Shown here piece after piece: positions 552 to 54,955 of a stretch of DNA of 64,000 nt. The notes under the pieces were generated by a model. The model was not told the origin of the DNA and did not search any database. It saw nothing but the letters and a program-made list of their open reading frames with translations. Made by a program: the position numbers and the translations under genes. The stretch covers positions 8,804,001 through 8,868,000 of the forward strand of contig OX344751.2 in assembly GCA_947034885.2 (NCBI GenBank), read 5' to 3'. Source of the stretch: Thuidium tamariscinum. Taxonomy: Eukaryota; Streptophyta; Bryopsida; Hypnales; Thuidiaceae. The number at the start of each line of letters is the position of its first letter. Positions within the stretch are counted from its first letter, which is position 1.

Positions 552-3500
552 CAAATTGCAAATCTGGAGCTGATTGAGGAAATCCTTTGGTCTAAGTAAC
601 ATGTTTTTGAAATTGATTTTCTTGTACCGATGGGTCTACAGTAAGCTGGAAATTCCTAGATTCGGTAAGTGACCGGCCATACAACTTAAGGTGGTGCTGC
701 AGCTGGGCAGTCAACGCAAGAAGTTTGACCGGCGTCTCTTAGTGTTCTGTGTGATCTGCGACTCTTCGAGTTCCCAGTTCCCACGCCCAAGCTGAAGTAA
801 CTCAATCAGCAGCACAGCATCCTCTCTGAACTCACCTGGTTTGCAAAAAAGGTGGGGTTAAGGTGAACATTAAACAAGCATATTACCAACCTGATTTGCA
901 ATCTCACTATTTTGGGATCAACACCAAGAGGGTTACATATTTTTCACAAAGGTTTGTGCTTGTTTCATGAATCAAATCCAAGTGGAATTTTAACTTTCCA
1001 ATCAAAACTGTAATTTTTGTGAATTTTTGAAGTAATTTGGCTTGAAATTACAAAGCCTAACATTGAGTGGGGGCATAAACATCTTATAAACAACCCATGT
1101 CCACTCTCTTATGTATTTATTGGCATGCAAGTGTTCACCAATGAATGATTGATACATTACCCCTTTTGACATTACCCCTTTAAGGACTGGTCGACCACTT
1201 TTTGGTTGATTTTTGCACTTTTTGTTTGTTATTAATTATAGAACATCTCATTTCTAAAAACTTAGAGAACAACACAATTAGAGTGTCTTTGTACGCTCCT
1301 AACAAAGCCAATTTCAAAAAAATGCGTGCAAAAATGCATTAGCTACGCTTGTCCAAACTTGAATTGCCTAGCCCTTCATATGTGAAATATTGCAAAAAAA
1401 TATATGATGAATGTAAAAGATGACTACTTATATATGTGAAAGAACTAATTGGAAGGTTTAGAATTGATTTTTGGAGCATTTAGTGAAATTTATGCCCAAT
1501 TGTGGCAAACCCTATTTAGCACCACTACTAAAGGCTATTTGCAACACATGAATCTTTGAAAATTAATTACAAGGATGTGAACTGTTGGATCGCTTTCATT
1601 TTTTGTTTGATTCAAGGATTTGTCCTATAGAATCAATTCATACAATTTGATTTAGAGTTACATCCATAGAATGGTCACAAAATTGGACTCTTCAAGAATT
1701 GTGTAAAGAAATTGCACCCACCCTCCAAATCAACCACGATCCTTAAAGGATTAAAGCATGGAAATCGTCCAAAAAATGAGTAGATTTGTATGATAGAATG
1801 GACGAAAGTGGGGCTAAAAATAGGGGGATGGAATTAGAAAGTAGATGGTAATGACTTCATCTACCTTACATAAAATGCTCTTTTAAGCACTAAATACTAT
1901 TTGCAATACATTTATTTAGACTTTTTCATTTGAAAAGCACATAGAAATTGCATACAATTGACTTTTGTTTATATTCTTTAGTAACCCACTTTGATTTATA
2001 TTTTTTGGACTCTTCTTGAATTAGTTATGAATTTTTGAAGTTTGAATGGATTGAGCAATCTAACTTGAAATGTTTATTATTAAAAAATTGAAAATTCAAA
2101 CTTTTCATTGTGTTGGAGATTGCTTTTAGAGCAAGGTAAAATTTTAATACCCTATCTTTTAATTAGACCTTAAATTCTTAGGGTCTTTTTCCAAAAATTA
2201 TCCAAAATTATCATTTGTATTGCAAAAAGCAAAAGAATTTAATTCTAATGTTTTGTTATTAATGAGTACATATCAAACTATAGTATCTTGTACTAAAATT
2301 GTTTGAGAATGTGTGGAAGAAACTTTAAAAACCTTGAATGTGTACATTGCAAAATATTTGCATTTAAGTTAAGAAAATAAGTACTTTTTCACTTTTTCAC
2401 TAGATTCTTGACTTTGAATTTTCTTAATCTAAAGTTTTTCATTGCACTAATTTTCAACTTTGAATGTTGAGTAATTGTATTGAGATTCCTAGAAACTTCT
2501 TTAAAACAATATGTTTGATTTTCACATTAAAAATTTGTTAAATAGAAGTAAGTCCAAAATCTAAGGAAAAATATAATAATTAATAGCCCTAGATGGAATT
2601 GAGATGTATCAATTTCGACATGAGATTGTTATAACAAGAGATCTTAACCTTACAAAACTTTTTTTAAATTGTGAAAATTGTATTAAAAAATGAATCTTGT
2701 AAGTTAATTTTTTTAAGAAGATGCTTTAGTTGCTTAAAAAACAAGATTTTCCATAATTTTCACATAACTAATCCAAATGGAATGAATCAAAGCTTTCTAT
2801 TTGGAGAAAATGTAATCTATAAGAAACAACCTTCTAAATTTTTTATTTTAAATTTTGTAGGGATTTATTTTGTCTATTGAGTTAAATTTTGGACTTATTG
2901 TTCTAAATTTTTTTCTCCTAGATACAAATTGAAATAAAAACTATATTCTTCTAGAAAGCTAAGGGTCATTGCAAGAAATACATATACTATTTTTTGACAT
3001 ATATTAGAAGCTAATTAGTTTTTTGTCCATAACTTTTGCATTTTGGCTCCAAATGACTCAAAATTCACAATTTAGGTACTTGTGACTAATATATAGTTAT
3101 ATTGTACATTTTTTGGAATTAAAAAAGCTTACTACGGAATATTTAATAATAGTACCCAATATTATGTCACACTTGCCATTTGAGGATATTTTTTGAACAA
3201 AGTAGTACCCAAAGAAAAGAATTTGGAGCAGAAATTTAGAAGAAATGGTCTTATAGTATACTTTTAGCTAGAATTTAAATAATTTTAAGAAATAACTAAT
3301 TAAATGTCATGTAGAAGTCCACAAATAGAGCTTCTTCCTACTTGCATTTTGAAACTTGTAAAAAATTATTTTGGTGATATTTTTGTTGAATCACCATTTC
3401 CATAAAGTTGGTGCAAATGCACAATTTAAAAAAATAAATTTAAAGCTTTTTTAAATTATTTTTCATTAATTAAAACATTAAAATATCCATTTTCTTGAAA

Positions 3501-3644: not shown

Positions 3645-5229
3645 ATATTTTGAAATTAAAAGAAATCCTAGTTTTAAAGTATTCTAGAAAAAATCATGAG
3701 TATTGTTGCAAAGTGCAACAAATAGTATTGGTGTTTCTTGCAATCACCCTTAATGTATTTTTCTATCTTCTCAACGAATTGGAGAAAATCATAGCAAATC
3801 TTGAGACCATAAAAACCTACCCAAAATCCAATTTGTCTTTTGAAGGAACAATGAGACTTTAGAGGTTAAATGTAATATGAATGAATTATAGTATAGGTTC
3901 ACATATTTTCTATAATAAATATTTTGAATTAAAATATTATTTCTCTGCTTTCCACACATGCCTTTTATATAAGAAGTATTTCTTTAAAGTAGCAATTTGC
4001 TCTTATTGCTTCGAAATCTAGTATCTTCTTCACATTTGATTTAAAGTTGTAATTTAAGTAAAAAAGTACAACATTTTTTTGTTAAACTTCTACAAAAAAT
4101 TTAAAACCAAGCTTCAACTTCAAGAACTCAATAAAAGCAATTTTCATATTCAATCATATAAAAACCTTCACTAGTGAATTTCGAAGTAAAATTTCCCATC
4201 TATTTGGGATACTACTTCTATTTTAGTAATACTAGTCTATGTTGTTCTTGTTTCATTTTGTCCAAACTACTTCCCCATTTTAGAATTGAGGATGATCATT
4301 TGAAATTTGAGCTCAATTAATGAAATGAAGTTCAAAAAATCTAGTTTGATATCTATTTTAAAAATAAAAATAAATCTAAAATTTGAATGTTTGCAACAAT
4401 TTTGATGTCACCTAAAACCAAGATACTTTAAGGTTTATAAGTTTTTGTTTTTTTTCAAATTCAATTTTGGAAGTGTCACTTATATACTAGTGTTAAGCTT
4501 TGATTCTTCCTTAATCCCCAAAGGACTATTGTCACCTCGGGGGACAAAGTGGATTTTGGGTAGGTTCCTATGACCTCAATTTTTGGTGAAACTTTTTGAA
4601 AATTTCTCATAAGATAGAAAAAATGATTAGCTTTGCAAAAATATAATTTTCATTTTAATTGGTGCTTGGGAGAAAAAGTTATACCACTAAAAGCCCAAAG
4701 TTGAATTTGGTGGGTGGCAAATGTTTTTGCAAAAAGAGAAAATTAATTCAAATTTTTTTTACAAAAATAATGTATTTTTGGCTACATGTAAAGCATTGAT
4801 TCATTCTATTTGGACTAATAATGAGAAAGTTATCAACAATATGTTTTTTTGGGCAATTCAAACATCTTGAAAAAACAACTTTGATTGCTCATATCTTCTC
4901 ATCTATACAATCAAACTTTGTGAAATTTTTACAACAAAATCTCAAATAAATTAAGTAGAAGATCCTACAATTAGATCCTAAACTTTTCTTTGTTTCTTGT
5001 ATGAATGCAACAGAATTGGCAATTTTGAGAGAGATTTTGACAAAAAAATGGCCTCAATCCTTTAGGAATAAATATCTATTAATAGTAAACAAATCTTTTG
5101 GATTGATTATTTACAATAGAAATACATGTTTGCATACAAGAAAGCATCAAAAATAACATTCCCTAGACTTTCTATATATCCAAAGATGTATAAATTTTTT
5201 ATTTTTGGTGACTTTTCAAGTTCCAATGA
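552..5229. other. AT-rich gene-free stretch
   Basis: Apart from the TA microsatellite at 3,579-3,641, I see no gene here. Open frames are short and low in complexity, and homopolymer A and T runs dominate. A moderately GC-rich patch at about 660-840 has no recognisable coding potential. Confidence 0.6.
3579..3641. repeat. (TA)n microsatellite
   Basis: About 31 uninterrupted TA dinucleotides. A 103-codon frame running through it (repeating Tyr-Ile) is an artefact of the repeat. Confidence 0.97.
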
Positions 5230-11733: not shown

Positions 11734-13986
11734 AGCCGCTCAATCTCTGACTCACCCACACAGGCACCCACATTAGATAAAAAAACTCGAATGCCCACAA
11801 ACCACGAGATTCCAGAGGCATTTTGCAGATCTCGAGCTTCTTGCTCACATTCAATACATCAGTGCAGGCAGGATTATGTAACGGTACTACCTTTGCACGG
11901 ATTGCAGCAGAAACTTTCAGGGTGGAGAAGAACGACGCTCACTTCTTTCGCCTCCCGAAGCTCCGTTCAATCTGGCTCAAGCTATCGTCTGTTCCGGAAT
12001 TTGGTACCCAAGATCTTCTCCCGTCAGAAACATGCTCAAGTTATTTTCTTTCGACTCAATGGTCAAAATACTTGAAGGTATAAAATACCTCCCATTGAGA
12101 AACAAAAATTATTGGTGCATCAATTCATCTGGTGCATCAATTCATCTGGTGCATCGGATCACAAGACACTGACTACCTCCATTTAAAATTATTGAGCTCA
12201 ATTTTGAGTTTCAATTTTTTATTATTGGTATGACAAGAAAATTTATATTCAATTAAGGTATGTTCACAAAAACTTTCAATTTCATTTCAATTTTCAAATA
12301 TTGTCTTTTAATCCTCATTATTAGTACATCTACTCATTATTGGTGTGTCAACTTTTAATTTCTCTTCAAAATTATTAATGCATTTTATTTTTGCTTTTTC
12401 ACATTCTTGGCATGTAGTTTTGATTGTGACTTCAAGTTGAAGCAACTGGTTATTTTAGTAGTTGAATAACTTCATCATGAAGCGTCCAATTCCCTCAGGT
12501 TGTGTCTTAGATGTAAGACTTTTGTAGAAGCGAGCTAATCCCCTTAGGCTAATGTCAAGGTGTTAGTCTCAAAAGAAGATATGAAATTGCTAAATATCTA
12601 TTCATCTTAATTTGAATTAATTTTAAAGAAAAGGCATTGATGCAACGATGGTAAACCATCACCTACTAATCCAAGTATCTAATTTGTCTTTTCTTAGTTT
12701 CGGTTGCGAATTTTACTCATGACAGGTTAGATTGAAACTTTATGATGAAGCCACCCAAATTCCTTACAGCAAATTTAGTCTTCAAGAGGAGCCGCTGAAT
12801 TCCCTAAGGCAAAAAGGTGCCAATTTTTATTGTGACGCTACTTATCATTCCTATCATTAGCTAAAAATAGAATTAAAAAAAAGACACTAGGCAACAATGT
12901 TAATCCAACTTTTTTCTTTTTCCTCTTGTGTTGTGTCCTAATTCTAGTATAAAAAGCATGGGCAATCTCTTGTCTTTTCAACTAGTAGTTGTTATTAGTT
13001 ATCATTGGGTCTTAGACCTATGTTCTCAGTTTGTTCAACCTTGGATTTCAAATCTTTGGCTTTTCATTAATAATTGGTTCATTATGCTTCATTTACTTTA
13101 AATTAGTTAGTCATCTCGATATGAACTAGTAGAGCCAAGTTTAGAGCCTTAACAAAAGTTGGCAATGCCAAAGATCAACGCCCTGTTAAATCCAAGTTGT
13201 CAAATTATTTAGATTGGTTAGTTATATACAACAAGAATCTAGTATGGCTAAAGATCTAACCACAGCAAATGACCAATGGTGATAGAGAATCGATCCCTCA
13301 ATTGAATCTAAGTCATCAAATTCTTATTAACCTACTCTTAACGCTTATATATATCGGGAACATAGAATAACAACCATAATAGTAATTTCAAAACATTCAT
13401 TAGAATAGGATATCATTTTAGCTTAAATGCTTGTATAGACAAGAACGTGGGCCAAACCATCAATCAAGATCATCTTTACAATAGGACAAGTTATCACCAA
13501 ACAATTTCATAATAAAAGTAGTTTAGTTTAGAATTAGAGAGCATATAATGCCCTCAACATCGTTCCAAAAAGAGAATAGTTCAATGACAAAGAACCTGGT
13601 AAAGCAAAGAGCAGGAACAATAGCAAAGTAAGAATTAGAGCCTTTGGAGGAATCCATCTTTCAGCCCCCGATTAGATGCAAGTTGGAAGAACCATTACCA
13701 ATTTTAATATTGTCACCAATATCAAATTGACCATTTGAACTCACTGAGGTCCAATTTTAGTAGTTACAAGTCAGGGAGTAGCCAATATAAAGCCCACGGA
13801 TGTACCCAGCCTTTCAAGAAATGTCTTCATTACCTAAAGATCCAATGCAATTATTCAAGTTACCAAATACTTGAAGACAATCACGGAACAAGGAAGAACA
13901 ATTTGGTTGTCATGTACCGTTGGAGATAATCCTTTTAATAGAGGAAGACCAAGGTCCCTAGCCACCAAGATCTAGATCACTTATGA
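11734..13986. other. Upstream flank and gene-free stretch
   Basis: 11,734-12,080 is moderately GC-rich and probably holds the 5' leader and promoter of the reductase gene. Short frames here on the plus strand look like chance. From 12,160 to 13,986 the DNA is AT-rich. Phrases such as AATTCCCT(A/C)AGG recur near 12,490, 12,535 and 12,800, suggesting an old degenerate duplication. No gene is recognised. Confidence 0.5.
12113..12155. repeat. 17 bp direct repeat, 2.5 copies
   Basis: TGGTGCATCAATTCATC occurs at 12,113 and 12,130, followed by a partial third copy at 12,147. Confidence 0.9.
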
Positions 13987-14830
13987 TTAACCCCTAAAGC
14001 CCTGAACTGCATTTTTTGGCAACATAGAAATTTTGGGTAGCTCACTACGAATGGAGTTTTTTTTGTTTTTCTTTGAAATTTTCACACAATATGTGTCCAA
14101 GGAGTATCTATAAGGCCCAACAATTTTCATAACTTTTGACTACACGGTTTAAAAGTTATGGCATGATATGTTGTTTCCTTTGAACTATGGGTAGCCTAGG
14201 CAACCAAAAAAACTTATTTAAAAATTGATTTTTTAATAAATAAAAATTTGAAATAGGTTTATTAGATTTTTATCTATGTCGAAAGCTTTGAATCATTCCA
14301 TTTCAATAAATGAGTCAAAAGTTATAAGGAATCTCAGTTTGGGGTAGTTTGCAAGTAGTTATAGAATTTGTACTCTATAAAAAAAGTTCGAAATTCTTTA
14401 TTTGATTCAATTTTTAATATTTTTGAAAAAAAATTAAAACAATGGGTGAAGATTGTTTATTACAATATTTTAACCATTGGGATTGGCATTTTTCATTTTT
14501 ATAAAAAAATTATTCACAATTTAGTATTTTCAAGCATTTTCTACTTCTTTCTACTTACTATTTTTTCCTATATGTTGTACAATTCCAAATGATTTGAAAT
14601 CTTTTTACCATATAGCCAACTTGAATTGAAAAATGAATTCAAAGAGTAACCATCATTTTGAGTATTTTTTCATACAAATGTGACCTTGTGAAGTGCAGCT
14701 ACCCGGATTTTTGCAAGGATAAAAAAAGGATTTTTGCTACTTCAAATGTTGATATCTTGCAATCTACACGGTGAAAGTTTTCGAAATTTTTTCTACATCT
14801 TTTCAAACCACCTAACTACACATAATCAAA
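13987..14830. mobile_element. piggyBac-type MITE, truncated copy
   Basis: It starts at TTAA (13,987-13,990) followed by CCCCTAAAG. It then carries the family sequence in order: TTTTTTGGCAACATAG, ATGGAGTTTTTT, CATAACTTTTGACTACA, GAATCATTCCATTT, AGAGTAACCATCATTTTGAG, GACCTTGTGAAGTGCAG. Homology to the copies at 49.7 and 53.7 kb fades at about 14,830. The far end with its CTTTAGGGG-TTAA is missing, so this copy is broken. Confidence 0.7.
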
Positions 14831-16811
14831 GTTTATGGCCCCCTTTGCAATCTTCCTTGAGATTGGTGGCCTATTTATGTCCTGAAAGTGATGGGGTAGT
14901 TCACCTCTTTTTTGGCAATAAGTTAGCCGATTTTGTTTTCTAGTTTTTTGCTCAATTGGCAAGTGACAATAGGTATTTATATCACCTCGGTGTGACAACG
15001 GACATCTCTAAGCTGTCAAAGATTAGTGGCTGCTATGTTATTGGTATTTAAAATAACAAACTAGTGACAAGTGACAAGGGTTCGAACTTTGGGTTGTCAT
15101 TGAGGGACTACCTACGCCTAAGCTAGTGACAAGGTAGGAAGTCACTAACATTGCGGTTGAAGACACTTTTTCAAGTGAAACTCCTAGCATTGTTGTCCAG
15201 ACTACTTGTCTTAAACTTTTTTTCTTTAGTCTTTTTGCATCTTTATCCAAACTCAATTCGTTGAGGTAGGATGGTGGATTTTTCTATTTTTATTTCTAAA
15301 AGTCCAAGTTGGCTCTGACTAAGGTGGATAAGGACTCTTTTCTCTTCTTAGATCCAAATCAACTTCGATTGAGGCGGATCATGATAAAAAAAATTATTAG
15401 AATAAATAAATAAACTGTGCTTAAAATCATAGAGTTTGACTTTAGGTCTTTAAGGTTTGCATCCAAAGTCCTTATAGGGAAATGGGTCCATAGATTTGTC
15501 TTGAACCCATATGGGTTGCATTGTGACTTTTTCAATAAAGTTATATTATGGTTCTAGAACCATAATGAACTTAGATTAGAATCACTCACTTTGATTTGTT
15601 AGTTGGTATTTATTAGTTTGATTGATCCTTCATTTTCATGCGTTTGTTCTCAAGTTTGAAATCTTAGAGTAGTGCATCAACTAGAATCCAATACCACTTG
15701 GTGGTTACGTATATTCACATGTTGCTAGCAACTTGATTAGATTTTGATTTGATCAAATATCATCTTATGAGATTCATCATGCGCCCATGATAAAACGTTA
15801 GCAAGAGTTTGGGTCTTATGGTTTGTAATCATACTATAGATGGCCACCATATGTGAGCCTTCAAGTTGGTACTTAGAACTTTGAATTTATTTTTTGTGAA
15901 TTTTTATAATTTTTAGGTTAATTTTATAGAAAAATAATATAAAAAGATTGTTATTGAGAGTCTTGGTAGAAGTCATTACCAAAGTAGTGAAGAATATTTC
16001 TAAAATTACAAAATGTATAAAATACCATATTTTTTGAATTCTAGGACCTAATTGACAGTCTAAGAGATTAATTAGCTATTTTGAGATAAATAAAGGTGTG
16101 AGAATTAGCTAGTCTTAGTATTTTGTCAATACAAAACTAAGACTGTAGAAATGCATTTGACAAATTGGCTAAGTATTTGAGTCTTTTTTAGGTCAAGAGA
16201 GTCAATTAAGTCAAAATTCAATTTATAGAAGATTTGGATTTGTTAATAAAAAAACATTGCAAGAACTTTGAGATTTAAGGCATAAATTTAACAAAGATGG
16301 AAGAGAAAGTATTGAAACATATAGAGAGGTGTTTTTAAGATGAAAGCATGCTAGGAGATTGACATGAGTGCCAATTACCTAAAAATTAATTCACTAATAG
16401 AAACCCCTAATTTTTTGGACATTTGTAGAAAACAAGAATGTTTTTTAAAACATAAGCAAGAAGATGTTGTTGCAGCCATAGAAGACACAATTCAATTGGA
16501 TGTTGTAAAAAACATGTAGATGTCATAAGCAAAAGAAGGTAATGTTCTATTTGATAGTGATGTTTTATGAGACATAAAAAATATAATTACATTTTGTACA
16601 ACATCCAAGAAAACATGGAATTGACACATTTGCAAGGGGTTTTGATTTAACTCCAACTAAGTTCACAAAAGTTGTTGTGGGCTTAGGTAAAACCCTGACC
16701 AAATGTGAAAATATAGAAGAAAAGAAGTTTTATGGCTTGCTTTCAAAAAAAAGAAATCAATGGATGTATACTGTGAATGAAAGGAGCAAGTCTATAGAAT
16801 AGTGGATGGTA
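14831..16811. other. AT-rich gene-free stretch
   Basis: No recognised gene. Frames such as those near 15,040-15,250 on the minus strand are short and show no family resemblance. Confidence 0.5.
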
Positions 16812-25399: not shown

Positions 25400-25601
25400 T
25401 AACACTATAAAAAACTCATGTTTTAAATGACAAATTTTAGGTGACATCTAATGTAGCAACTTGTGTTTGTATGTCAACAACAATATCTGCCATAACATCA
25501 AAATGCTCTCGCAGACATCATTGGTGATATAAAAACACACATTGCTACATTGGATGTCATCTAAATTCCATCACCTAAAACATGAGTTTCTTACAATATA
25601 A
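25400..25601. mobile_element. CACTA-like foldback MITE, copy 1
   Basis: A 196 bp palindromic element (25,403-25,598) begins CACTATAAAAAACTCATG and ends CATGAGTTTCTTACAATA. It is flanked by TAA on both sides, a 3 bp target duplication. Nearly the whole element can fold into one hairpin. It is the same length as the copy at 60,785-60,980. Confidence 0.8.
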
Positions 25602-39665: not shown

Positions 39666-39674
39666 GTAGCCACC
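39666..39674. repeat. 9 bp target duplication, left
   Basis: GTAGCCACC, repeated exactly at 46,845-46,853 on the other side of the element. Confidence 0.95.
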
Positions 39675-40550
39675 CCTCGGCACTAAGTCCCAAGGCGTTT
39701 TGGGGTTCCGCCTGGGTGCCCGGCCCGTAAACTTTAACGCCCCGCCCGCCCCCAAGCCTCCTGCCACCCCGGAGTCCCCCTGCCCCAAGTCTCCAGCCCC
39801 GCAAGCCCCCCATCAGGGAGACCCAGCTTGCCCGCCCGATTGTCTTAAGGCACCCAGCTCGCCTGGACCTTGTCGCTCCAGGAGCTGACCCCTCTTCCCC
39901 TTTGCTTTTCTCATCACAGAGTTATGGCAAGTTTTCTTTATTTCAAATGGACCTCCAATATTGGGGTTTAGGGTAAATGTAGAAAGCACAAGGCCTGTTT
40001 TGAGCTTCTTGGAATTTGCTCTAAATTGAACAAAAATCCAGCATTTTGATAAGTTGAATCAATTTTTTTTTAAATTGTAACCGTACAAATTCAAAGTAGA
40101 CATGTTAGAGATGACATAGGAAAAGAAAACACAACAATATCACTTATGGATTGAAAGATTATAATGTTTGATCATGAGGGTGTAAAAACTATGAAAATCC
40201 TTGAGCTCTCTTTTTGCATGTCAAATCTTAAAAGTTGGTCACCAAAAAAAATTTGAGGTTCAAGGGCCTAACAAACCTAATCCAAATCAATTTATGGCTT
40301 CTCAAAATCTACTCTACAATTTTTTTAAATGAATTTGTAGTGTGACTTTTTTTTCTAAAATCTAGTGTATTTGAGGCTCATTTCCAAGAGTCCTTAACAC
40401 TATGGAATATCAAGATTGCAATGGTTACTCTAGCACTAAATCTTGAATAGAAAAATCATAATCATTCATTTTCAAAATTGGATTATTGACTTCAAAAACT
40501 AGACTTTAAAAAGAATCTTCAAAAATTATAAACTACTCAAAATAGAAAAG
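39675..40550 (+). repeat. MULE terminal inverted repeat, left
   Basis: An 876 bp arm. The first 230 bp are GC-rich with open frames on both strands; these frames are an effect of composition, not genes. The remainder is AT-rich, ending at CTCAAAATAGAAAAG. Confidence 0.93.
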
Positions 40551-40935
40551 AACATTTTTGGACACATGTAACCATAAAAAAAATTGTACGTTGGTTTGAG
40601 AGGATGTAAAATGGAATTTCCACTAAGAATATTGTAAGATATTAATGTTTGAGTTTTCACAACCCCTTTTTTGGGCCCTACAAAAAAAATTAGGCAATTG
40701 CACTTCACAAGGTCACATTGGTATGAAAAAATATTCAAAATGGTGGTTACTCTCTGGATTCATTCTACAAGGCAAATTAGCTAGATGCATAAAAAATGTC
40801 AAACCATTTGGAGTTGTACAACATACAAGAAAAATAATGATGAGTAGAAAGAAGTAGAAAATGGTGTAAAAAAACAAAATTGTTAATCATTTATTTACAC
40901 AAATTAAAAATGCCAATACCTATGGTTGTAATGTT
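40551..40935 (-). mobile_element. piggyBac-type MITE fragment in left MULE arm
   Basis: Starts abruptly in mid-element (ACATTTTTGGACACATGTAA). It follows the family order to about 40,935: CACTTCACAAGGTCACATT, AAATGGTGGTTACTCTCTG, CATTTGGAGTTGTACAACAT. The TTAA and the terminal CCCCTAAAG are missing on both sides. Up to about 40,797 it also pairs with the right arm. Confidence 0.6.
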
Positions 40936-41132
40936 AACATTGATAATGATGTGTTTGTATACATATTATTTTTAATATATTTCACATAATTTCTATAATT
41001 GTCTTAAGTAGTGAATTTATGAAAATTATAATTTGTATACTACAACTCAATTGCTTAATCAATAAAGTAGGCAATTATATTTAAATACCAAAATATAGAA
41101 ATATTGTCTTGTACCAAGTACATTATTTTGCA

Positions 41133-44100
41133 TCAAGTACATTTCAATTGTTTATCACAATTACGGCAAGATACTATTGTATCACCTTTTTCTATCATAG
41201 TTTTAGTGAAGCATATATCACAAAGTACTTTTGGAATTCTTGGGAAAATAGTCCTCTTCCGTTTTGAAGTAGACACCAATTTGTGAGGTGGATGTGTCAA
41301 TATAGGTCGGTGTTGGCTTGAAAGTGAAATTTTGTCTTCTTCAATTATAGCCTTTTTCTTGGAAATCCTACCATGTCCCATTCTTGTACGTTGCACATTC
41401 TCTTGAATAGATAATATAGATCCTTTTGATGGAAGTGCAATAGAAGAAGGTCTTGCAAACGAAAAAGGCTCTGTGATTGAATTCATGCATTTCTTCATGA
41501 TATCAATCTTGTACTTCATTTCATCGTTCCCATATTTTCCAACATTAGACTTCAATTTCAAAAATACATCCTCCATTTCACATATAACTTGTAGAAATTC
41601 TTCTTCCTCATCATTGTCTGGTATACTATCACTCATGACGTCTTCATTGTTGACTTCTTCAAATGTAGGAAGAATGGGAGGTTCTACTCTTGTACTTGAA
41701 GATGGGGATTCTTCATCATTGAAGGATGGATAATATTTTTTTACTATCAATTGCACTGCAAGTATATGCTTACAAGTTGATGCGGGAGAAGCACAGTCAC
41801 AAAAATGAGTACTGAGGGAAACAATGTACCTAGTGTGTAAAGAAGTCTCACTTGAAATACGAAATATTCCTTGTTCTACATTGAGTACTTCAAATACAGT
41901 CTGTAAATCGCTTTCATACTTCTTGAAAAGTCTCTCACCACTTGCTAGACGACGTTGATGAAGTTTATCATTTGCTCTTTTTGAGAACCTCCCTGAATCA
42001 CCTACATTTTCCAAGTGTAAATAAAAATGATTCACAATAATGAAACTCTCTTACTTTAGAAATACCTAAAGGAAAAATCAATCACATTACAAATACTTAC
42101 TTATAGCTTGAACTTGTTTGAAGTGATCTATTAAGGTAGGCCCTCCAATACGACTTCCATCCGCAGCACTTCCAATGATGGCAACAATTAAATCTCGAAT
42201 TGATCGATTGACTTTGCCTTGAAGAAGAGTGTATTTAATCCACTCCCAATGCCTCTCAACATGATTTGTAGTGTCCATGCCTCCATATGAGAAAAGTCTT
42301 CCAAATTTTGGCCACATTGTCCTCCAAGGCACTCCACTATCTGTCCATCCACACCTCATATATTCTTCCACCCCAAGAATGTGCTCAAAGTCTGCATAAA
42401 ATTTTCTCAAGTTCTCTTCAAAATGATCTTCACGTGGGCAATTCAATAGTACATGTAGACTTTGCCAAATTTTATCTTTCTCTACTCTAGGGACACGAGT
42501 CAAAAGGTTCTCACTCCAAGCCTTCATGGCATGAAACCAACATAATAATACTCGCCCTGCAATTTGTTCTTCACCAAGTCTTCCATGTTTCCAACAATGA
42601 GGATCATTGTTGCAAATATAGTTGATAGCATTTAATGATGTCTTGCATTTATCAATAATAATTGTTGATGGCCTTATGTCTCCCATATTAGAAAAAACAT
42701 GTGTTAGTGCAAGCTGTATTGCTATTCCTTCATGACCCGCTTCTTTATCTTTAGTACATAGCATGTAGAAAATGGGCATGGCTTTTCCATCCTGGTTTGG
42801 AACAACTGCAGCATATAGAGGTAAGTCATATTGATTTGTTTTGAAAGTTGAATCAAATGCCCATGATTGCCCCTTAGAAAACCTTTTAGCATTTGTTCTC
42901 ATAAAATCATCTTGTATTACCACAACAAATGGTCTTCGCTTTGGATCTTCATGAGTTGGACAATATTCTTGGTAGAAAATCACTTTCTCTTGTTTTTGAA
43001 GCCTTAAGATTTCAACATTGGCGGCATCCCAATCATCTATCCTCAATGCATCTAGAAAAACAACAAGAAATATATATAGTCAAATATCATGAAACAAATA
43101 CATGTAAAAATATGCATTTAAAATAAAGAATGAAGGAAGGACATACCATTAAGTCTGATGAAGTATGAAAGTTGTTCAACTTCCTTTGGGATAAGAAAAA
43201 ATCGATATGTTGCCCGCTCCAAGTCTTCAACCATTGCTTGTATCTTTATTTCTTCTCTAACAGACGCCAAAGCAATAGTCGATGTAGAAATCATGTGTTT
43301 TAAGTTCTCAATTGCCAAAGAAACAACTAGTGGATGAACGGGTAGAAACATTTTGTCAACTTCTGTACCCGATTGATGTCCGCTATGTTTGGTATGTACA
43401 AATATAGTAGCTTCGGTAGGGATATTGACTTGTGTAGAGCTTTCTCCCATCTCAAGAGGTACCATAACTTTTATTTGGAACTCACAATCACACTTCATTG
43501 ACTTCTTCTCTCTTCTTATTGTTGACGTAGAAATATTTTCTTCTTTTCTCCTCTTTCGTGACCTTTTTTTCCCACCTCTATGACAACGATAATATGTAAT
43601 CTTGTAATGCTTTGTAAGCATTGTGTAATACACACGACGTACTACAACATGAGTCTTACAAATGTCATTAAGTGTGTTATCAACAATGTTAGAAGGAATT
43701 TTGTGAACTTCATCCCATAATTGTGTTTCTTGGCAATTTGGACAAGATTTAATACAATTTTCAATGTAAGATTGAGCAATGCCTCCAAGCCTTTGGTCTG
43801 TGCTCCATTTGCTTCGTATAGAAGACGTTGTGCCATGTAGAGATAAGTGCTTACCACTAGGATCAAGATGGGAATTTGACACTATAGATGACCAATTTTC
43901 AATATGACCAATTTCTCGTTGTTTCATATCTAATAAAGGTGAAAGACCAACTCCATCACTAGTTTCTATAAACTTCAAACTCTTTTGAAGTTTGATCCAT
44001 CGGTCCTCGGTGTGCATGACATCATTGACATCTATAGGTCTTCCATGACTTGTAAGAAGCGGACGAAAGTTTCCATCTACTTCACGGATCTCATGGAAAG

Positions 44101-44428
44101 TAGGATACCTCTCTTTTTGTAAACAATCGATCATAAGATTCCTACTAGCAAGAGAAAATTGAACAAATTTTGGAGAAGACTCTATAGAAACATGATTAAA
44201 AGAAGGTTTTGGTAGCTCATCTATAGAGTAAGATAAGTCCGTTGTTGCCAAGCTCAAGTTCCATCCACCACCTTCATCAAATATTTCTTCCATGTCTTCA
44301 TCAAACCCATCATCAGATTCAAAATCTGATAAATGGAAGTAGGCATCTTCACAAGTTGAAGAATAAGTGCCTCCCTCACTTCCAGAAGCTCCATATATTA
44401 TATCTTCTACTCCTACAACATATTCCAA
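41133..44428 (-). CDS. SWIM-type MULE transposase
   Basis: Three exons, 44428-43147, 43051-42101 and 42001-41133, GT-AG and in phase, about 1,030 codons without a stop. Exon 1: an acidic N-terminus, then cysteine-rich zinc-binding-like parts (CPNCQ; YRCHRGG...KCDCEF) likely to bind DNA. Exon 2: the catalytic DDE domain of MULE type, with Asp in SWAFDSTFKTN (about residue 494), Asp in STIIIDKCKT and Glu in NHVERHWEWIKY; CWFHAMKAW is also typical. Exon 3: a SWIM zinc finger (CDCASPASTCKH), an acidic linker and a C-terminal LCDICF...CRNCD pair of CxxC motifs. Its role is cutting and joining at the element ends in the nucleus. The start is uncertain: codon 1 here is TTG and the first in-frame ATG is at 44,293. 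An ATG at 44,490 opens MEGGNELNEL, which is one base out of frame with exon 1. The exon 3 acceptor could also be 9 bases further in. Confidence 0.88.
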
Positions 44429-44966
44429 ATCATCTTCAAAATCAGAAGGATAATAACTATTAACTCATTTAACTCATTGCCTCCTTCCATGATTATTACA
44501 ACACTTCCACGTCTTATACTATTAGAATATAGTAAATGGTAAATATGAACAGAATATGAATTTATGAACATAAACGTTTTATGAAGAAATCAAGGCACCA
44601 AACTACTCAAAGAAATGAGTTCTTAAAGACAATCTCTTCACCTTCAAGTTCCGTCTTATAAATAGAGATTTAAAAGTAAAAGCTAGTTAAATTTAAAATA
44701 AAAGTGGACTACTTTTCTATTCTTATTTTCCTTTTTTTTAGAATAGTCTACAAAAGTAAAAGTATTCATTACATCTTATCCCAAGCTTGCCTTATCCAAT
44801 TATTGATCTTCTACTTAGAATTATTGTACTTAGAGTAATAGTGAATTTGGAAAATTACCTATATAGTATAATACATTTGTTCCAAGGAAAATTTTAAATA
44901 GGGTACAATAGCTAGACAATTCCAATCCTAGCTAAGTTGCACAATTCACTTTAGAGCCGAAATTAA

Positions 44967-45794
44967 TTAATTCCTAGATGCTTGGACTATTTTTTGACAA
45001 TATAGCAGTTTTGCGTAGCTTACTACAAAATACAAATGGAGTTTTTTTGTTTTGTTTTTGAAATATTCACCAAACATTTTCCCAAGCACTAGTTTTGAGG
45101 ACCAAAAATCTCCATAACTTTTGAGTATATAGTTGAGATGTTATTGTACGATGTGTAGATTTCATCGCTTAATTGCTTAATAGGAAGCTCAAGCAATTTA
45201 GAAAAATTCTTTAAGAAACACTATTTAAAAAAATAGTTTCTAGATTTATACATGTGTGGAAAATTTTGAATCATTCCATTTTGAATTAAAAAATGAAATT
45301 TAGGAGGAGTTTAAGTTTTTGGATAGTAATGGATAAGTTTTCTATTATACAATTCAATTTAGAGCCGTTTGTTCATTTCAATTTTCAATGTTCTTGTAAA
45401 GAAAATAAAAAATTGCATGTACATTGTTTATTAAAAAATGAAATTTAGAAGGAGTTTATTTTTTATGTATCTAGCTAACTTGCCTTGTAGAATGAATCTA
45501 GAGAGTAACCACCATTTTGAATATTTTTTCATACCACCGTGACCTTGTGAAGTGCAATTGCCTAATTTTTTTGTAGAGCCCAAAAAAGGGGTTGTGAAAA
45601 CTCAAACATTAATATCTTACAATGTTCTTTGTAGAAATTCCATTTCACATCCTCTCAAACCAACGTACAAAAAAATCCTATGATTACATGTATCCGAAAA
45701 TGTACATTTCAAAAAATAAAATGGATCTAGTACTAGACATGGTAGTTTCGGAGCATTTTGGATGAAAACATAGTCAAATACATTTAGGAATTAA
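44967..45794 (+). mobile_element. piggyBac-type MITE inside the MULE
   Basis: TTAA at 44,967-44,970 and 45,791-45,794 flanks 820 bp. The ends TTCCTAGATG and CATTTAGGAA are inverted copies of each other and cousins of CCCCTAAAG. The interior follows the family order (TTTTTTGACAATATAGCAG, ATGGAGTTTTTTTG, GTGACCTTGTGAAGTGCAAT, GATGAAAACATAGTCAAA) but lacks a middle block, so this copy has suffered a deletion. Confidence 0.65.
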
Positions 45795-45968
45795 TAATGA
45801 ACTAATTTTAATTTTTCCACTATTTTTGTAGCTACAAGTTTCTCATCTACATTTTTTATTATTCTTATTTTAAATTTTTGTGCTTTCTACACTTAACCCC
45901 TATAGTAAATGCCCAAGGCACCAAAATGTGGTTTTGAAGCAACTTTGAAGTTAAATGAAGTCTTACCA

Positions 45969-46844
45969 CTTTTCTATTTTGAGTAGTTTATAATTTTTGA
46001 AGATTCTTTTTAAAGTCTAGTTTTTGAAGTCAATAATCCAATTTTGAAAATGAATGATTATGATTTTTCTATTCAAGATTTAGTGCTAGAGTAACCATTG
46101 CAATCTTGATATTCCATAGTGTTAAGGACTCTTGGAAATGAGCCTCAAATACACTAGATTTTAGAAAAAAAAGTCACACTACAAATTCATTTAAAAAAAT
46201 TGTAGAGTAGATTTTGAGAAGCCATAAATTGATTTGGATTAGGTTTGTTAGGCCCTTGAACCTCAAATTTTTTTTGGTGACCAACTTTTAAGATTTGACA
46301 TGCAAAAAGAGAGCTCAAGGATTTTCATAGTTTTTACACCCTCATGATCAAACATTATAATCTTTCAATCCATAAGTGATATTGTTGTGTTTTCTTTTCC
46401 TATGTCATCTCTAACATGTCTACTTTGAATTTGTACGGTTACAATTTAAAAAAAAATTGATTCAACTTATCAAAATGCTGGATTTTTGTTCAATTTAGAG
46501 CAAATTCCAAGAAGCTCAAAACAGGCCTTGTGCTTTCTACATTTACCCTAAACCCCAATATTGGAGGTCCATTTGAAATAAAGAAAACTTGCCATAACTC
46601 TGTGATGAGAAAAGCAAAGGGGAAGAGGGGTCAGCTCCTGGAGCGACAAGGTCCAGGCGAGCTGGGTGCCTTAAGACAATCGGGCGGGCAAGCTGGGTCT
46701 CCCTGATGGGGGGCTTGCGGGGCTGGAGACTTGGGGCAGGGGGACTCCGGGGTGGCAGGAGGCTTGGGGGCGGGCGGGGCGTTAAAGTTTACGGGCCGGG
46801 CACCCAGGCGGAACCCCAAAACGCCTTGGGACTTAGTGCCGAGG
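45969..46844 (-). repeat. MULE terminal inverted repeat, right
   Basis: An 876 bp arm, the inverse complement of 39,675-40,550, with the same length to the base. Confidence 0.93.
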
Positions 46845-46853
46845 GTAGCCACC
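46845..46853. repeat. 9 bp target duplication, right
   Basis: GTAGCCACC, identical to 39,666-39,674. Confidence 0.95.
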
Positions 46854-47007
46854 TCGAAATGTAAGCACAAAGGGGAAAATGGATAGAATCATCCACAGTG
46901 CAAGTTCATCCATAAAATCATCCAAACATTGACAAATCTAGATTTTTTTTTAAAAAGGATTAGGTGATTTCATTCATTTTTTCAAACATTTCTCTTGGTG
47001 TCAACCT

Positions 47008-47954
47008 TTAACCCCTACAAGTTTTTGACTACATTTTCACCCAAAACATTCCAAAACTATCATTTTGAGTACCAACACCAACTTCTAGAAAGAAATAACA
47101 ATTTTGGATACATGTAACTATAGGAACATCTAGTCAACTAGTTCCAAAAGATGTAGAACAAATTTCAAAAATTTCGTCCATGTAGATTGCAAGATATGAG
47201 CGTTTCAATTGACAAATATTCTTTTTTTAACCCTGTGGAACCCTTGGCAAGTGCACTTCAAATGGTCACATTTGTTTGAAAAAATATCCACAATGGTGGT
47301 TACACTTTGAATTTGTTCTTCAAAGCAAGTAGGCTACATACTTGAAAATTTTCAAATCATTTGAAATTGTACAACACATACTTAGGAAAAAAATAATAAA
47401 TAGGAAGAAGTGGAGTATAATCCAAAATACTAAATCATTAATAATTTATTTATGGAATTGAAAATTGCCAATCCCAATGGTTTTCATGTTGTAATAAACA
47501 ACCTACATCTAATGCTTCTATTTATTTTTCCAAAAATATAAAAAATTGAGTTAAGTAAAGAATTCCAAACTTTTTTGTAGACTAATAGAGATTCTATAAC
47601 TACCTTCAATCCCTCATAAATTTTGACTCATTGATCAAAATAGAATGATTCAAAGCATTCCATGTAGATATAAATCTAAAAACAAATTTCAAATTTTATT
47701 TCTTGAAAAAATAATTGTTAAAGAAGGTTTTTTTTGCTACTTGGGTTGCCTACCAAGCAATGAAAACTACATATCATACAATAGCTTCTTAACTATGTAG
47801 TTAAAAGTCATGAAAATTGTTGGGCCTTAAAGGTACACCTCGGGAAATATTTTGTACAAATTTCAAAAAATAAAAAATAAAAACTCCATTGGTAGTGAGC
47901 TACCTAAAATTGATGTATTGCCGAAAAAACGCAGTTTAGTGCTTTAGGGGTTAA
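47008..47954 (-). mobile_element. piggyBac-type MITE
   Basis: TTAA (47,008-47,011), CCCCTACAAG, a 939 bp element, GCTTTAGGGG, TTAA (47,951-47,954). It lies in the opposite orientation to the copies at 13,991 and 49,667. No coding frame is present. TTAA plus ends starting CCC is the rule for piggyBac superfamily elements. Confidence 0.75.
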
Positions 47955-49662
47955 AGGTTGAATTACCTTATAGAAAAGGAGAGAGTGTCAAATAACTTTT
48001 CCATTTATAGTCTTTTCTTCTAAAAATGTTTTAGTACAAAGTTCAATATGATATAGCAAGTGTGATGTGGTAGGAAATTGCTACTTAACAATCTAGATTC
48101 AAATGTATGCCTTATTTGTTGAAATTTTTTAAGAACTCCAAAGTGTAGTTTAGCATTTTGGTCACATCTTTTGTGCTTTGAAAACAATCAAACTATTTTG
48201 TATCTTTCAAAAAATTTAGTGCTTTTTCACTAAAAGCTACCAAATCCAAGCATGATTGAAATGGAGAACAAGAAATTTCTAGTTTAAGGCATGCAATCTC
48301 CCCAAGCTTACATGTCTAGAAGGACATAATAGTTTGATTAAATTGGATAGTTCTACTATATTTGACTAATAATTTTTATTCTAAAAGATTTCAAACAATT
48401 TTAGACCTCCTAGTTATAATATATTGTATAAAATAAGGATTACTAATCAAAGTCAACTTTTACATGGTTAACTCCTATAATTTGAAGATCTAAATGATAG
48501 ACTTCTTTTTTGCAAAATGCCTTATTCTGTACATAGGCCCTTGCTTTCAAAGATCCTCTAACTCTACCATCCAATAATGCATTTACTCACCAATAGCATT
48601 CAAGGAGCATTTTTGATATTGCATTTTTCAAATAATTCTTCTATTCACAAGACCAACAAAACTTTTAGGGGTTAAAGAAGCTAGTGCCAATATCAAAGAC
48701 GGAGTAAGATTTGGGTGAAAAAATCACAAAAAAAATTTGGCTAGCAAAGACAAAGTGAAGAGCTTCCTCACTAAAGCCTTGTTGTTGGTAGTTGTATAAG
48801 GCCTAACTCATCTAATTGTGATTTGGTTCTAAACTAACCTTTACAAGTTATTGAGTAAAATGTAATGTATTTATAAGAAACCCAAGATTGATTCATTTTC
48901 CTATACTTTGAAAAATTCATATTTTATTATTTTCTTTTTGAAATTGCATTCTCTATTCACCTAATGTCCACTATTGATTCCCATCAAGATTCAAGAGAGA
49001 ATTTAGATAATTCAATCATAAAAAATATATTCATAACACTTGTTTAGATGATTATAACTATAGGTATATTAATTAGTGTATTACAGTGAGTTCAACTAAT
49101 TTTGCCATGATTTTAGAATTATCACCTAAATTGGTGGATTGTCTTAAGTCAAGTAAAGTGCAACATCAAAGTTCATAGGGTACCTTAAGAAGACACCAAC
49201 TTTTTTAGAGTGCATTCACATTGAGGAGTACTTGAGCTTTAAAAGGAACTTATAGCTTTCAATATGAGAGAGAGACAACAAGTTGATATTAGACCAACCT
49301 TTTTTCTTTCATTTTAAAAAAGATTTTAAAACAACCATTGTGTGCAAATTTTAGTAAAGCAAAATGTTTCTACATACATACATTTCTTTAACATGAAATC
49401 ACTGTCTAATTAGATTCATATGTGCTTCATCTATAACTAGCAATTTCATCTTATTTTTGAAGAATTTTTAAAAATTGGTCAAGAAAACAATATTAATCAT
49501 TAAAAACAATAGAAATAAAGTTTAAACTCAATTCCTTACAAAATCAGAGATTTACACACATGTTTGCCTAAGTGTGTATGTTTGATAGCAATTCCTACAG
49601 AAGTTGTATCTACAAAGCAAAAAATGACTATTTTACAAGAATTAAGGGTTGCCTACTACAAT
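47955..49662. other. AT-rich gene-free stretch
   Basis: No gene recognised. An AGGGGTTAAAG phrase near 48,667 is a lone match to the piggyBac-type end without a partner. Confidence 0.5.
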
Positions 49663-50595
49663 TTAACCCCTAAAGGACCAACATGCTTTTTTTGGCAACA
49701 TAACTATTTTGAGCAAGTACGTAGGACTAGAGATTTTCATGTTTTGGGATCAAAATTTAATAAAAGGTGTGGGCAAGGAATATCTTCAAAGCCCAACAAT
49801 TTTCATGACTTTTGCCTACATGGTTAAAAAGTTATCACTTGATATGTTGTTTATTTTTCAACTTGGTCAGTTCAGGTAGATCATAAAAAATCACTTTTTT
49901 TGGAAAAAAAAAATTGAAATTGGTTTTATAGATTTATACATATGTAGAAAATTTTGAATCATTCCATTTGGACTAATGAATCAAAAGTTATGAAGAGTTT
50001 TAGTTTGCTGGTAGTTATGGATTCTCTACTCTAAAATAAACTTTGAAGTCTTTTATGTTATTTAATTTTCAATATTTTTGGAAAAAAATAAAAAAATTGG
50101 GTGTAGATTGTTTATTACAACATTTGAACCATTGGAATTGGCAAGTTTCAATTTCACAAATAAATTCTTAACAATTTAGTAATTTGAATCATTCTCTATT
50201 TTTTTTTATTTACTATTTTTTTCCTATATGTTTTCCAATTCCAAATGTTTTGAAATTTTTCAAGCATGTAGCCGACTTGCCTTGGAGAATGAATCCAAAG
50301 AAGCACTACCATTTTGGACTTTCTTTCATGAAAGTATGAGCTTGTAAAGTGCAGCTGTCCGAATTTTTGCTATCGTAAAAAAAAGATTTTTGTAATTTTG
50401 AACACTAATATCTTGTAATCCACATGGTAGAAATTTCTGAAATTTTTTCCTCATCTTTTCAAACCAGCATACTACAAGATCCTACAATTATATGCATCTA
50501 AAAACAATATTTTCCAAATATTTGGTACTTGTGTTAGAAATGGCAGTTTTAGAGGGTTTTTGGTGAAAACATAGTCAAAGAACTTTAGGGGTTAA
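49663..50595 (+). mobile_element. piggyBac-type MITE
   Basis: TTAA (49,663-49,666), CCCCTAAAGGACCAACATGC, 925 bp, ACTTTAGGGG, TTAA (50,592-50,595). Both ends are intact and inverted. It shares internal order with the copies at 13,991, 47,012 and 53,715. Confidence 0.78.
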
Positions 50596-53500
50596 AGAAG
50601 AGATAATACAAGCATATTTAGCCTTGGTAAGTCTTATGAAAAACAAGACGTTTTGATATTCATAAATGAATATAATGAGTGGTATATGGCAAATTTTTCA
50701 AATATAGACTTCTTTTTTAAGAGAATTGAACCAATCATACTATGTTATAGCAAAATGATTGTGAAGTATTGGAGTATGACCCTTAAATTACTTGTCAAAT
50801 CATGAAGTTTGTTTTGTATAGCCATAAGGATTATTCTTTGTTATATATAAAGTTTTTGTTTAGTGATGACTATAGTTTACTATTATATTTTCTAAAAATG
50901 CTAAAATTTTGAATTATTATTACCATTTGTCTACTTTTAACATGTTTTTGTCTATCACATTAATGAATTGCAAGAGTGCAAATTGTTTGTGTGATTTACC
51001 TTTGAATTCAAACCTAATAATCTCCTAAGAATTATTCCAATACTATAGATTTATTGGTCATTTGAAGTACCTTCAATAGCTATTGCAACAATCACTATGG
51101 AACTAGCAATATAATATTGTGTAGTATAGATATCAATGATATGATATGGTCAATTGTTACAATTATATCATGTAATATTTGTAAATTGAAATCTTATAGT
51201 TGAAAAGTAATAAAGTATAAAGGATTAATAATATATAACATTTGTCATTAAAATTTTAAGGCTAAATTTCAAATGTAAATAAAATTTGAAAGGAAACAAT
51301 TAAAATATTTAATTTTAAATCTATTTTATGCAAGTCATTGATAATGTTTTTGTTTATTTGATGAAAATAAAAATAAAAATAATAATATTTGACTCCTATT
51401 GTATAGAATTGTCTATACTATTAAAATAGATGATTATTTGTTTATTTGTGTCTTTGTGATAACATTACATTAGAATCTTAGTGATCATTGGGCTACCTAA
51501 GGCACACTTGATAACATCAAAAAGCCTTAGGCAAGGGGGTACATGGGAGAGAGTTTACAACATTTTGCCCTATGGAGTGAAAGATATTGATAGACCAAAT
51601 TTTAATCCCACCAAAAATTTAAAAATTATAGATGGAAAGCAATTGAGCTATATTGTTGATGGCTTTCTTTTTCTTTATAAAAAGAATTTTATCTTTGAAA
51701 TTTGTTTGCCAATATTTTCTTTTTATATGTGTAAAAAAACTAGAAAATAAAAATGTAATATGAAAATTGATATGAGACAAGATATTGAATGTCATTTCTA
51801 TGGGTAAATTTACTATCCTTTAGTGAATTGAAAAATGGGTATGAAAGAAGCCATAAAGAGAAGTTAGCCATCACTTTTAGAGCAATAAAAATTGACAAAC
51901 TAATGGTTGTAGCAACAATATAAAGTTGAGCTTTAAAGCACACTAGCATGAAATAACATTAGGTGAGTTTCATGATTGCAATGAAATGCCAAAAATTGAG
52001 AATGATAAATATATAGTTACAATTATATTTTTCAATTGGTAAAAATTTAACTACTATGACAAACTTTCATTAATGGTAATTAGCCATAGTGGTCTTGCTT
52101 TGTCTTTTTTTTATAGATCAAAATGTAATATGGGGGGATACTCTCACTACATTTGGGGAACCCACGTGCGGCAGAGGGGGATTTTTTACCAATTGAAAAT
52201 TACAATTGTAACTATTTACCTCTTAAGCAACATTAAAAGAGCCCCTATCATTACCTAATGCAAAAAAATATCCTATATAATCATCCATATCATTACTTAT
52301 ATTATATTGGTCAATGCAATTTTTTTTAGCCTATATTTTTTGCAAGTAAAAAAACTAAATAAAAAACTAATGAGAAAGTAAAAGTGACAAGAAAAAAGTT
52401 CATAGAAAAAAAGATTTAATTTCTAAACACCAATTAGCATGCATGAATCAAATACAAAACATTAGACTTGAAAGCCATACTCAACAATTAGAAGCCATAT
52501 GAAGAATGTATTCAAAACACAAAGCTGAAGTCAATGAAAGTACTAAATGTGCAAAGTACTGAAAATGTGCCTCAATGTCAAAATGCAAACAAGAAAAAAT
52601 GACTCCTAGCAAATGAAAAAAACTACAATAGCAACCCCCTGCTGCATTTTTGATACACACTTATACATTTGAAAAAAAACATTCAATCTACCATTTGCCA
52701 CTCAACAGCTACTTTAAAACTCTAGGTCTATGAAATCGCACCTTCATCCATTGATTTGGAGTTTCATCTTGTAACTTTGACATATGAATACCCTACGCTC
52801 GAGTCAGATTTGTCAAAAATTAATTCAAAATTAATTAAATATGGCACATGATGAAATTTTCAGAAATCATAACATGACAAGTTTGATAGTGTAGAAAAGA
52901 TTAACGAAAATAATTTGAAATCTTAAAAAAAAATTTGATGAAAAATTAAATATTATATTATCCATGTGTTTCAAAAAATCAACAAATCATATAAAATAAT
53001 ACTCCATATATTATGTTGTAAAGCCTTAAGACTTGATTGTAAAGCCTTGATTTTAGCTTAAGAACTAATAGTATGGCCTTCATTACTCAAACCTAATAGT
53101 AAAGCCTTGATTAATCCTGAGTAGAGCAAAATTCTGGAAAGCCTGCCTTATTTTAGCCCTGTAAAACAACATTTTGTAAAGCCTCCATCATGTTGAGCTT
53201 ACAATGTGGTAAAGCAAGAGGACCATAGCTACAATTAACAAAATATTCCCAATTACAATAAATCAAATCCTGAAAATTCTAAATGGGGTGATTGAAAGGG
53301 AAATTTAAGCAAAAAGAAAAGATTTTGTATAGAGTATGATAAATCTGCCACCAACATATGGTACTATACTATAAGTTTGATATAGTATTATATTGTAATT
53401 TTGACGTATGTAGTATAAACAAACCCTACTTAATACAATTTATTGGATCTAATTCTTTTGCTCCTAAATTACATGTATCTAAAAATTAATGGATCATATT

Positions 53501-53710
53501 TTTTGGCTACCTACTTTACTTATAATGGACTTGCCATTTTTCATATCCCCTATTTTATATGTAATTTTTTTCTAAGTACTTATAAATATTACCCAAAATG
53601 AATTAAATCCATCCTATATTTTACTGCATGTAGGTTGCTAAAATGCGGGAAGTGTCCCTCGTGAAATGTAACTACCAAAACTAATTCCAATTAATTGGTT
53701 GATAGTCACG
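50596..53710. other. AT-rich gene-free stretch
   Basis: Nothing gene-like. Near 53,020-53,190 the phrase GTAAAGCCT(T/C) recurs about six times at irregular spacing, a weak simple repeat. Confidence 0.5.
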
Positions 53711-54955
53711 TTAACCCCTAAAGGTTTTTGACTATGTTTTCACCAAAACCACTTCAAAACTGTCATTTTTTTAGACAACTACCAAATTTTAATAAAAAAA
53801 AAATTTGGACAAAAGTAACCATAGGATCTCTTAGAGCACAAGTTTAAAAAGATGTGGAAAAAATTTCAGCAATTTCCACCATGTAGATTGCAAGATATTA
53901 GTGTTTGAAGTGACAAATATCCTTTTTTTTACCACTGTGGAAATCCAGGCAGCTGCACTTCACAAGGTTGCATTTGTATGAAAAAAAGTTCAAATTGGTG
54001 GTTACTCTCTGAATTCATTCTTAAAGGCAAGTTGGCTATATGCAAATAAAATTTCAAATCATTTGGAGTTGTAAAACATAGAGGAAAAAACTAACAAGTA
54101 CAAAGAAGTAGAAAATGAGCCAAAACACTAAACTGTAAACAATTTATTTATGGAATTGAACATTTTTTATCCCAATGGTTAAAGTGTTGTAATAAACAAT
54201 CTTCACCTATTGCAATTATTTTTATCCAAAAATATTAAAAATGGAATTAAATAAAGGATTTCAAACTTTTTTTGTAGTGTAGGAATTTTGTAACTAGCAT
54301 CAGAAGAAATTTGAGGGCATTAGAAGACTGCGGGTTCCCGGACTGCGGGAACGCAGTTTCTGCCCTGTAAACTCGAATCCTACGTGGTCGGGACACTGCC
54401 ACATAATTAAAAAAAAAAATTCAAATTTTTTTTTGAGCTTATTTTCATATTTCAGGACCCAGAATATATATATATATTTATTTATTTATTTTGGTAAAAG
54501 TCGGCCTGACAGGGGGCTGTGGCATTGGGAGCCGTTTTGGGAACAGACCCGAAACGGTCCTGTAATGCCCTCAAATTTCATCTAATGCCACAAACTACCT
54601 CAAACTAAGCCTCCTCATAACTTTTGACTCACTAATCCAAATGGAATGATTCAAAGATTCTTGCATATACAAAATTCTAAATAAAATATTTCAATTTTTT
54701 ATTTTTTCAAAAAATTATTTTTAAAGATGTTTTTTTATCTGCCCAGGTTGCCTAGAGATCAAAGAAAATCACATATCATGCAATAACTTTTTGACTATGT
54801 AGTCAAATGTTATGAAACTTGTTGGACCTTAAAGCTACTCCTTGGGCACATGTTGTGTGAAAATTTCAAAGAAAAAGAATAAAAACTCCATTCATAGTGA
54901 ATTGCCTAAAATTGCTATGTTGCCAAAAAACGCAATTTGGTCCTTTAGGGGTTAA
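53711..54955 (-). mobile_element. piggyBac-type MITE with nested insertion
   Basis: TTAA (53,711-53,714), CCCCTAAAGG, 1,237 bp, CCTTTAGGGG, TTAA (54,952-54,955). It is longer than its relatives because a CATTAG-end MITE sits at 54,298-54,587. Subtracting this leaves about 947 bp, matching the 925-939 bp copies. Confidence 0.8.
54298..54587. mobile_element. CATTAG-end MITE, nested copy
   Basis: About 290 bp, from CATCAGAAGAAATTTGAGGG to the inverse of CATTAGATGAAATTTGAGGG. A GC-rich subterminal segment (GGGTTCCCGGACTGCGGGAA) stands out from the AT-rich host. The interior has an AT simple repeat. AACTA close to both sides may be its target duplication. Confidence 0.7.

Follow-up and report, generated by a model that had tools for sequence, protein, structure and literature searches.

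The 64,000-nucleotide stretch of DNA analysed here (the window) contains a near-complete, 7,170 bp Mutator-like element (MULE), a DNA transposon of the cut-and-paste type, whose identical terminal arms probably come from copying between its two ends (estimated probability about 0.62). The sequence supports a well-preserved element with intact ends, a target site duplication (TSD) and putative catalytic residues. Divergence steps from zero within the arms to roughly 5-8% just inside them, and because of this step we infer arm-to-arm copying, together with its direction, number and timing, from a single copy of the element. If the arms were copied from one another, their perfect identity would therefore date the last copying event and not the insertion. 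The positions of all features of the element and of related sequences in the window are listed in Table 1.

Table 1. Features of the Mutator-like element and copies of the associated TTAA-flanked MITE family in the window.
Feature	Position	Strand	Remarks
MULE, near-complete	39675..46844		7,170 bp
TSD, left copy GTAGCCACC	39666..39674		identical to 46845..46853
TSD, right copy	46845..46853		identical to left copy, 9 of 9 bases
Left terminal arm, 876 bp	39675..40550	+	inverted match to right arm
Left MITE piece (LU), truncated	40551..40935	+	profile positions 86-481; profile match E 1.3e-69
Transposase exon 3, including stop codon	41133..42001	-	CxCx6CxH starting at codon 824; close to the C-terminus, CDIC at codon 1017
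Transposase exon 2	42101..43051	-	MULE domain
E705 (putative catalytic residue, exon 2)	42255..42257	-	
D573 (putative catalytic residue, exon 2)	42651..42653	-	
D506 (putative catalytic residue, exon 2)	42852..42854	-	
Transposase exon 1, as open frame	43147..44464	-	in-frame stop directly upstream; earliest in-frame ATG at codon 58
MITE just inside right arm (RU)	44967..45794	-	TTAA at both ends
Right-only spacer between right arm and RU, 174 bp	45795..45968	-	
Right terminal arm, 876 bp	45969..46844	-	identical to left arm
MITE family copies and remnants	2181..2848; 4510..5067; 13986..14892; 47006..47955; 49662..50597; 53711..54955		

The ends and the coding content of the element show that it belongs to an already known kind, the Mutator-like elements. 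An exact 9 bp duplication had been claimed in a preliminary description of this DNA and is indeed present, its length lying within the range of about 8-11 bp for TSDs of MULEs. The terminal inverted repeats (TIRs), which are often long in MULEs, agree at 876 of 876 positions and the transposase carries the MULE domain PF10551. Identical 9-mers spaced 7,179 positions apart occur at 8 of 56,812 window positions, the TSD pair among them. The reconstructed empty site reads GGTGGTAGCCACC, then TCGAAATG. The target site GGTGGTAGCCACC (39662-39674 joined to 46854) forms a near-palindrome with 5-bp arms. GC content in the 2-kb bins beside the element, which overlap its arms, is 49% on the left and 34% on the right. 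A second copy of the transposase was not found in the window, where the next best tblastn match has an E-value of 1.1. Two inverted units of ca. 950 bp at 47006-50597 were considered as a second MULE and rejected; each is a MITE copy of its own, flanked by TTAA, and the two are oppositely oriented.

A survey of MULEs published in 2019 is reportedly the work of Dupeyron et al. With the MULE superfamily (MuDR, Jittery, VANDAL and other groups), as far as it is covered by the available part of PMC6446971, the element shares a 9-bp TSD, long TIRs and a transposase of the DDE type that carries a MULE domain and the letters of a putative SWIM-type motif. Its 876-bp arms are longer than the TIR range given in that part of the survey, which is 14-500 bp with individual table rows of up to 640 bp. 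Tm1 Mutator/Foldback elements of root-knot nematodes likewise have mostly 9-bp TSDs and, according to the accessible portion of the study, 5 of 61 carry TIRs that are fully identical over their aligned portions (PMC3169594). Tm1 differs in that the same portion gives an average TIR pair identity of 93.15% and describes a mostly MITE-like family.

The transposase gene is encoded on the minus strand and, in agreement with the three-exon structure claimed previously, consists of three exons separated by GT-AG introns of 95 and 99 nt, yielding 1,045 open codons with a stop codon that ends at 41133. In a Pfam scan of the three open frames, taken one by one and not spliced, the exon-2 frame matches the MULE domain with an E-value of 4.8e-13 (49.8 bits against a cut-off of 27.6) and a ZSWIM1-3 RNase H-like domain below threshold (E 1.3e-5, 25.6 bits against 27.2). 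The gene had also been described as a SWIM transposase that keeps its DDE residues. At the sequence level the residues are in place: in the spliced frame, the putative catalytic D506, D573 and E705 are spaced by 66 and 131 residues with CWFH at position 610, which we take to be the DDE triad and the C/H motif located between the second D and the E. The SWIM assignment stands only in its letters, since CxCx6CxH, presumably a SWIM-type motif, is present in exon 3 but the Pfam SWIM profile reaches 14.6 bits, below the cut-off of 19.6. The exon-1 frame gives two sub-threshold matches only, to unrelated families (E 0.068 and 0.55), and neither a MuDR N-terminal domain nor a FAR1 domain is found among the Pfam matches up to E 1 in the three frames. 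Fold prediction of the transposase without an alignment resulted in a mean pLDDT of 45.4, too poor for catalytic geometry. A search of solved structures returned a single match, a glutathione S-transferase at E 0.048, which is taken as chance. Relatives of the transposase were also sought in viral contigs, with no pattern match in a search that catches close relatives only, and in prokaryote genomes, where 2 stretches matched the pattern and 0 were confirmed.

The 1,045-codon frame lacks a start codon. An in-frame stop is located directly before 44464, the first in-frame ATG lies at 44291-44293, and the ATG at 44488-44490 belongs to a different frame. Yet codons 1-57 resemble coding sequence under a coding model trained on codons 121 onward of the same gene, with a mean log-odds of 0.337 compared to a null mean of -0.19 and 0 of 3,000 random stretches scoring as high. 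The other two frames over this stretch score -0.098 and -0.283, and codons 58-120 score 0.12. Either a 5' exon has been overlooked or the start is damaged. The upstream stop and the late ATG, combined with the coding-like character of the preceding codons, could indicate a copy that moved recently but is no longer self-sufficient, its own transposase gene being damaged at the 5' end and its mobilisation having relied on the enzyme of another copy. All recognised domains would, however, be kept if a further 5' exon has escaped recognition or if translation begins at codon 58, and we hold the reading of a damaged copy to be possible with the odds leaning against it. The earlier characterisation as a complete, active autonomous element is borne out for the ends, the TSD and the catalytic residues and falls short at the start of the transposase frame. 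Very recent activity of the element is plausible.

The two terminal arms are identical over their entire length. Alignment of 39675-40550 with the inverse of 45969-46844 confirmed the claimed arms of 876 bp and equal length, with 0 of 876 positions differing, which sets a 95% upper bound of 0.34% on arm divergence. The match ends abruptly inside 40550/45969. An alternative arm length of 877 results from the chance pairing of flanking positions 39674 and 46845, while 876 fits the 9-bp TSD. Exact inverted 60-mers in the window define four axes, namely the MULE and three neighbouring axes near 3.58 kb that are due to a perfect (TA)31 run at 3579-3640. Apart from the arms themselves, only short matches to the outer arms were found in the window (best E 0.046), and a search for diverged MITE material within the outer arms yielded only matches of ca. 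20-40 nt, none with an E-value below 0.046. In the terminal 200 bp of each arm (39675-39874 and its mirror 46645-46844), GC content is 67-69% and CpG observed/expected ratios are 0.81 and 0.41; the remainder of the arm has a GC content of 21-45% and 1 CpG in total. Total identity over 876 bp with a sharp edge would also be expected from an assembly or polishing artefact in which truly differing arms were collapsed or polished to one consensus. The TSD is nevertheless consistent with a real insertion and the inverted repeat adjoining the arms stayed distinct at 88-95% identity, depending on the counting method, making such an artefact highly improbable.

This inner inverted repeat is formed by MITE sequence. 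After the break at the arm ends, inverted homology resumes between 40545-40797 and 45458-45710 at 90.9% identity. Its left and right copies mismatch at 20 of 246 positions once 8 gap columns are excluded, and at 10 of 207 in a conservative count that leaves out an AT-run beside the junction (40551-40590). Compared with the arms, Fisher's test gives 3.5e-14 and 5.4e-8 for the two counts, respectively, the inner divergence resting on about 207-274 columns that are partly of low complexity. A tandem-TIR MULE was considered and rejected, as the inner repeat is unrelated to the outer arm and matches the MITE profile; it is not a duplicate of the outer TIR. The right MITE piece, RU, retains both MITE ends with TTAA and the termini TTCCTA...TAGGAA and has an internal gap of about 130 positions relative to the family profile. 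The left piece, LU, retains neither end and is missing both the 174-bp spacer and MITE positions 1-85. The profile match of LU begins at 40545, within the end of the left arm, and at this junction GAAA is common to the arm end and the MITE. Within the right spacer, 45892-45945 weakly resembles another MITE end but was not counted, its E-value of 2.5 being at chance level, and a 21-nt match that this spacer has with the arms (E-values of 0.013 and 0.046, depending on the query) was not used.

In a six-copy alignment, LU and RU show the same state in 240 of 274 shared columns, compared to 67-72% in the same columns when either is set against the four other window copies. They share 16 derived sites relative to the unanimous state of these four copies, while the same test finds 0 derived sites common to LU and any single other copy. 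Because of this difference, LU and RU are most likely sisters.

The MITE family to which both pieces belong is recurrent in the window, with copies of ca. 830-950 bp that are flanked by TTAA and bounded by CCCCTA...TAGGGG, the termini found with TTAA in copies U47, U50 and U53. We presume from this end motif that the family is piggyBac-like. A profile was derived from four copies that do not belong to the MULE (47004-47957, 49660-50599, 53709-54957 minus an insert, and 13985-14822) and searched against the window, resulting in 11 matches with E-values of 1e-9 or lower. Of these, five fall on the training copies, with U53 split in two and U14 reaching 14892. A pair of older remnants accounts for three more, one at 2181-2848 and the other comprising 4510-4840 and 4877-5067. 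The remaining three are within the MULE, at 40545-40935 (profile positions 86-481), 45794-45458 (positions 5-345) and 45439-44983 (positions 477-931). The reversed window, searched as a control, gave nothing better than E 0.58. The copy at 53711 is interrupted at 54296-54590 by an insert of ca. 295 bp; that at 13986 lacks one end. Fragments of a piggyBac-type transposase are found at 60985-61571 on the minus strand, with DDE_Tnp_1_7 matches at 60985-61281 (E 1.3e-17) and, below the cut-off, at 61272-61571 (E 0.04), and represent a possible source of the TTAA MITEs. A 186-bp fold-back sequence with the core ends TAAGAAACTC and TAAAAAACTC is present in two copies (60790-60975 and 25408-25593; 95% and 76% self-complementary), one of which adjoins the piggyBac fragment. 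The window further contains an 84-bp tandem repeat of 2.4 copies (17461-17663) and a gene for a DUF1751/TMEM115-type membrane protein in open frames at 28933-29974 on the plus strand. DUF1751, a family of eukaryotic membrane proteins, is matched by two of its three frames (E 1.9e-13, above the cut-off, and E 0.0012, below it), and the gene at 28.9-30.0 kb presumably resembles the land-plant form. An Rfam scan of the window returned 0 matches at the gathering score.

The arrangement of arms, spacer and MITE pieces suggests how copying between the ends may have proceeded. A single TTAA MITE would have inserted beside the right arm, and the right end together with part of the MITE would then have been copied onto the left end. 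The inner copies would subsequently have diverged by about 5-8%, each acquiring deletions, before the outer 876 bp were copied anew in a tract that would stop at the left heterology, that is the missing spacer and MITE positions 1-85. The arms may have been kept alike through end-to-end copying during repair, either by gene conversion between them or by interrupted gap repair after excision. Interrupted gap repair of this type occurs in maize MuDR. Copying between arms can take place before, during or after insertion. Against this history, LU and RU could derive from two independent insertions of a MITE subfamily otherwise unseen in the window, and the similarity at the left junction amounts to a mere four consecutive exact bases. 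In addition, TIR similarity of rice genic MULEs declines with age, as stated in the part of PMC4858842 that was available, so that high identity would indicate youth.

The rice data favour the original interpretation of a simple recent insertion, in which the arms of a young autonomous MULE would be identical owing to the youth of the whole element, and its inner MITE pieces, whether inserted independently at an earlier time or inherited from long ago, would have no bearing on the arms. The exact TSD and arms and the unbroken frame with its catalytic residues point in the same direction. However, sister-like MITE pieces with their shared derived sites, placed in inverted orientation beside both arms, are not readily obtained from independent insertions, and neither the sharp contrast in divergence between arms and inner repeat nor the missing start codon fits a simple recent insertion, which we therefore regard as unlikely. 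Copying between the arms remains our preferred reading. MULEs with multiple TIRs likewise possess more than one inverted repeat pair near their ends, for which the accessible text of the report discusses recombination or acquisition as the origin (Ferguson and Jiang, 2012; PMC3310237). Unlike the multiple-TIR MULEs covered in that text, the inner pair observed here consists of TTAA MITE pieces and not of a copy of the outer TIR. A literature search by titles and abstract openings found no report of arm copying in MULEs, and we make no claim that it is unpublished.

At substitution rates of 8e-10 to 3.3e-8 per site per year, the upper bound on arm divergence corresponds to about 2.1 million to 52 thousand years, where the highest rate is the maize value used in the available part of PMC8547701, the other rates are assumed, and the rates may not be those of the host. 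With a divergence of 4.8-8.1%, the inner repeat exceeds the arm-divergence bound by a factor of 14 to 24. The description of the element as recent is supported only for the last equalising of the arms, given the step in divergence. For elements other than LTR retrotransposons, the same part of PMC8547701 uses terminal branch length for dating.

For the most part, the element represents one more well-preserved MULE and a candidate mobile MULE in a land plant. If the copying between its arms holds, it would caution against taking the identity of the two ends of a DNA transposon as a measure of its age and would offer a concrete, testable case for the origin and upkeep of long terminal repeats, with a MITE as internal marker. 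More broadly, and with odds that we place just short of even, repeated repair synthesis might copy one end of such elements onto the other, dragging foreign DNA beside one arm into both, so that arms would grow and be renewed independently of insertion. If this is true, arm identity would be a clock of copying and not of transposition.
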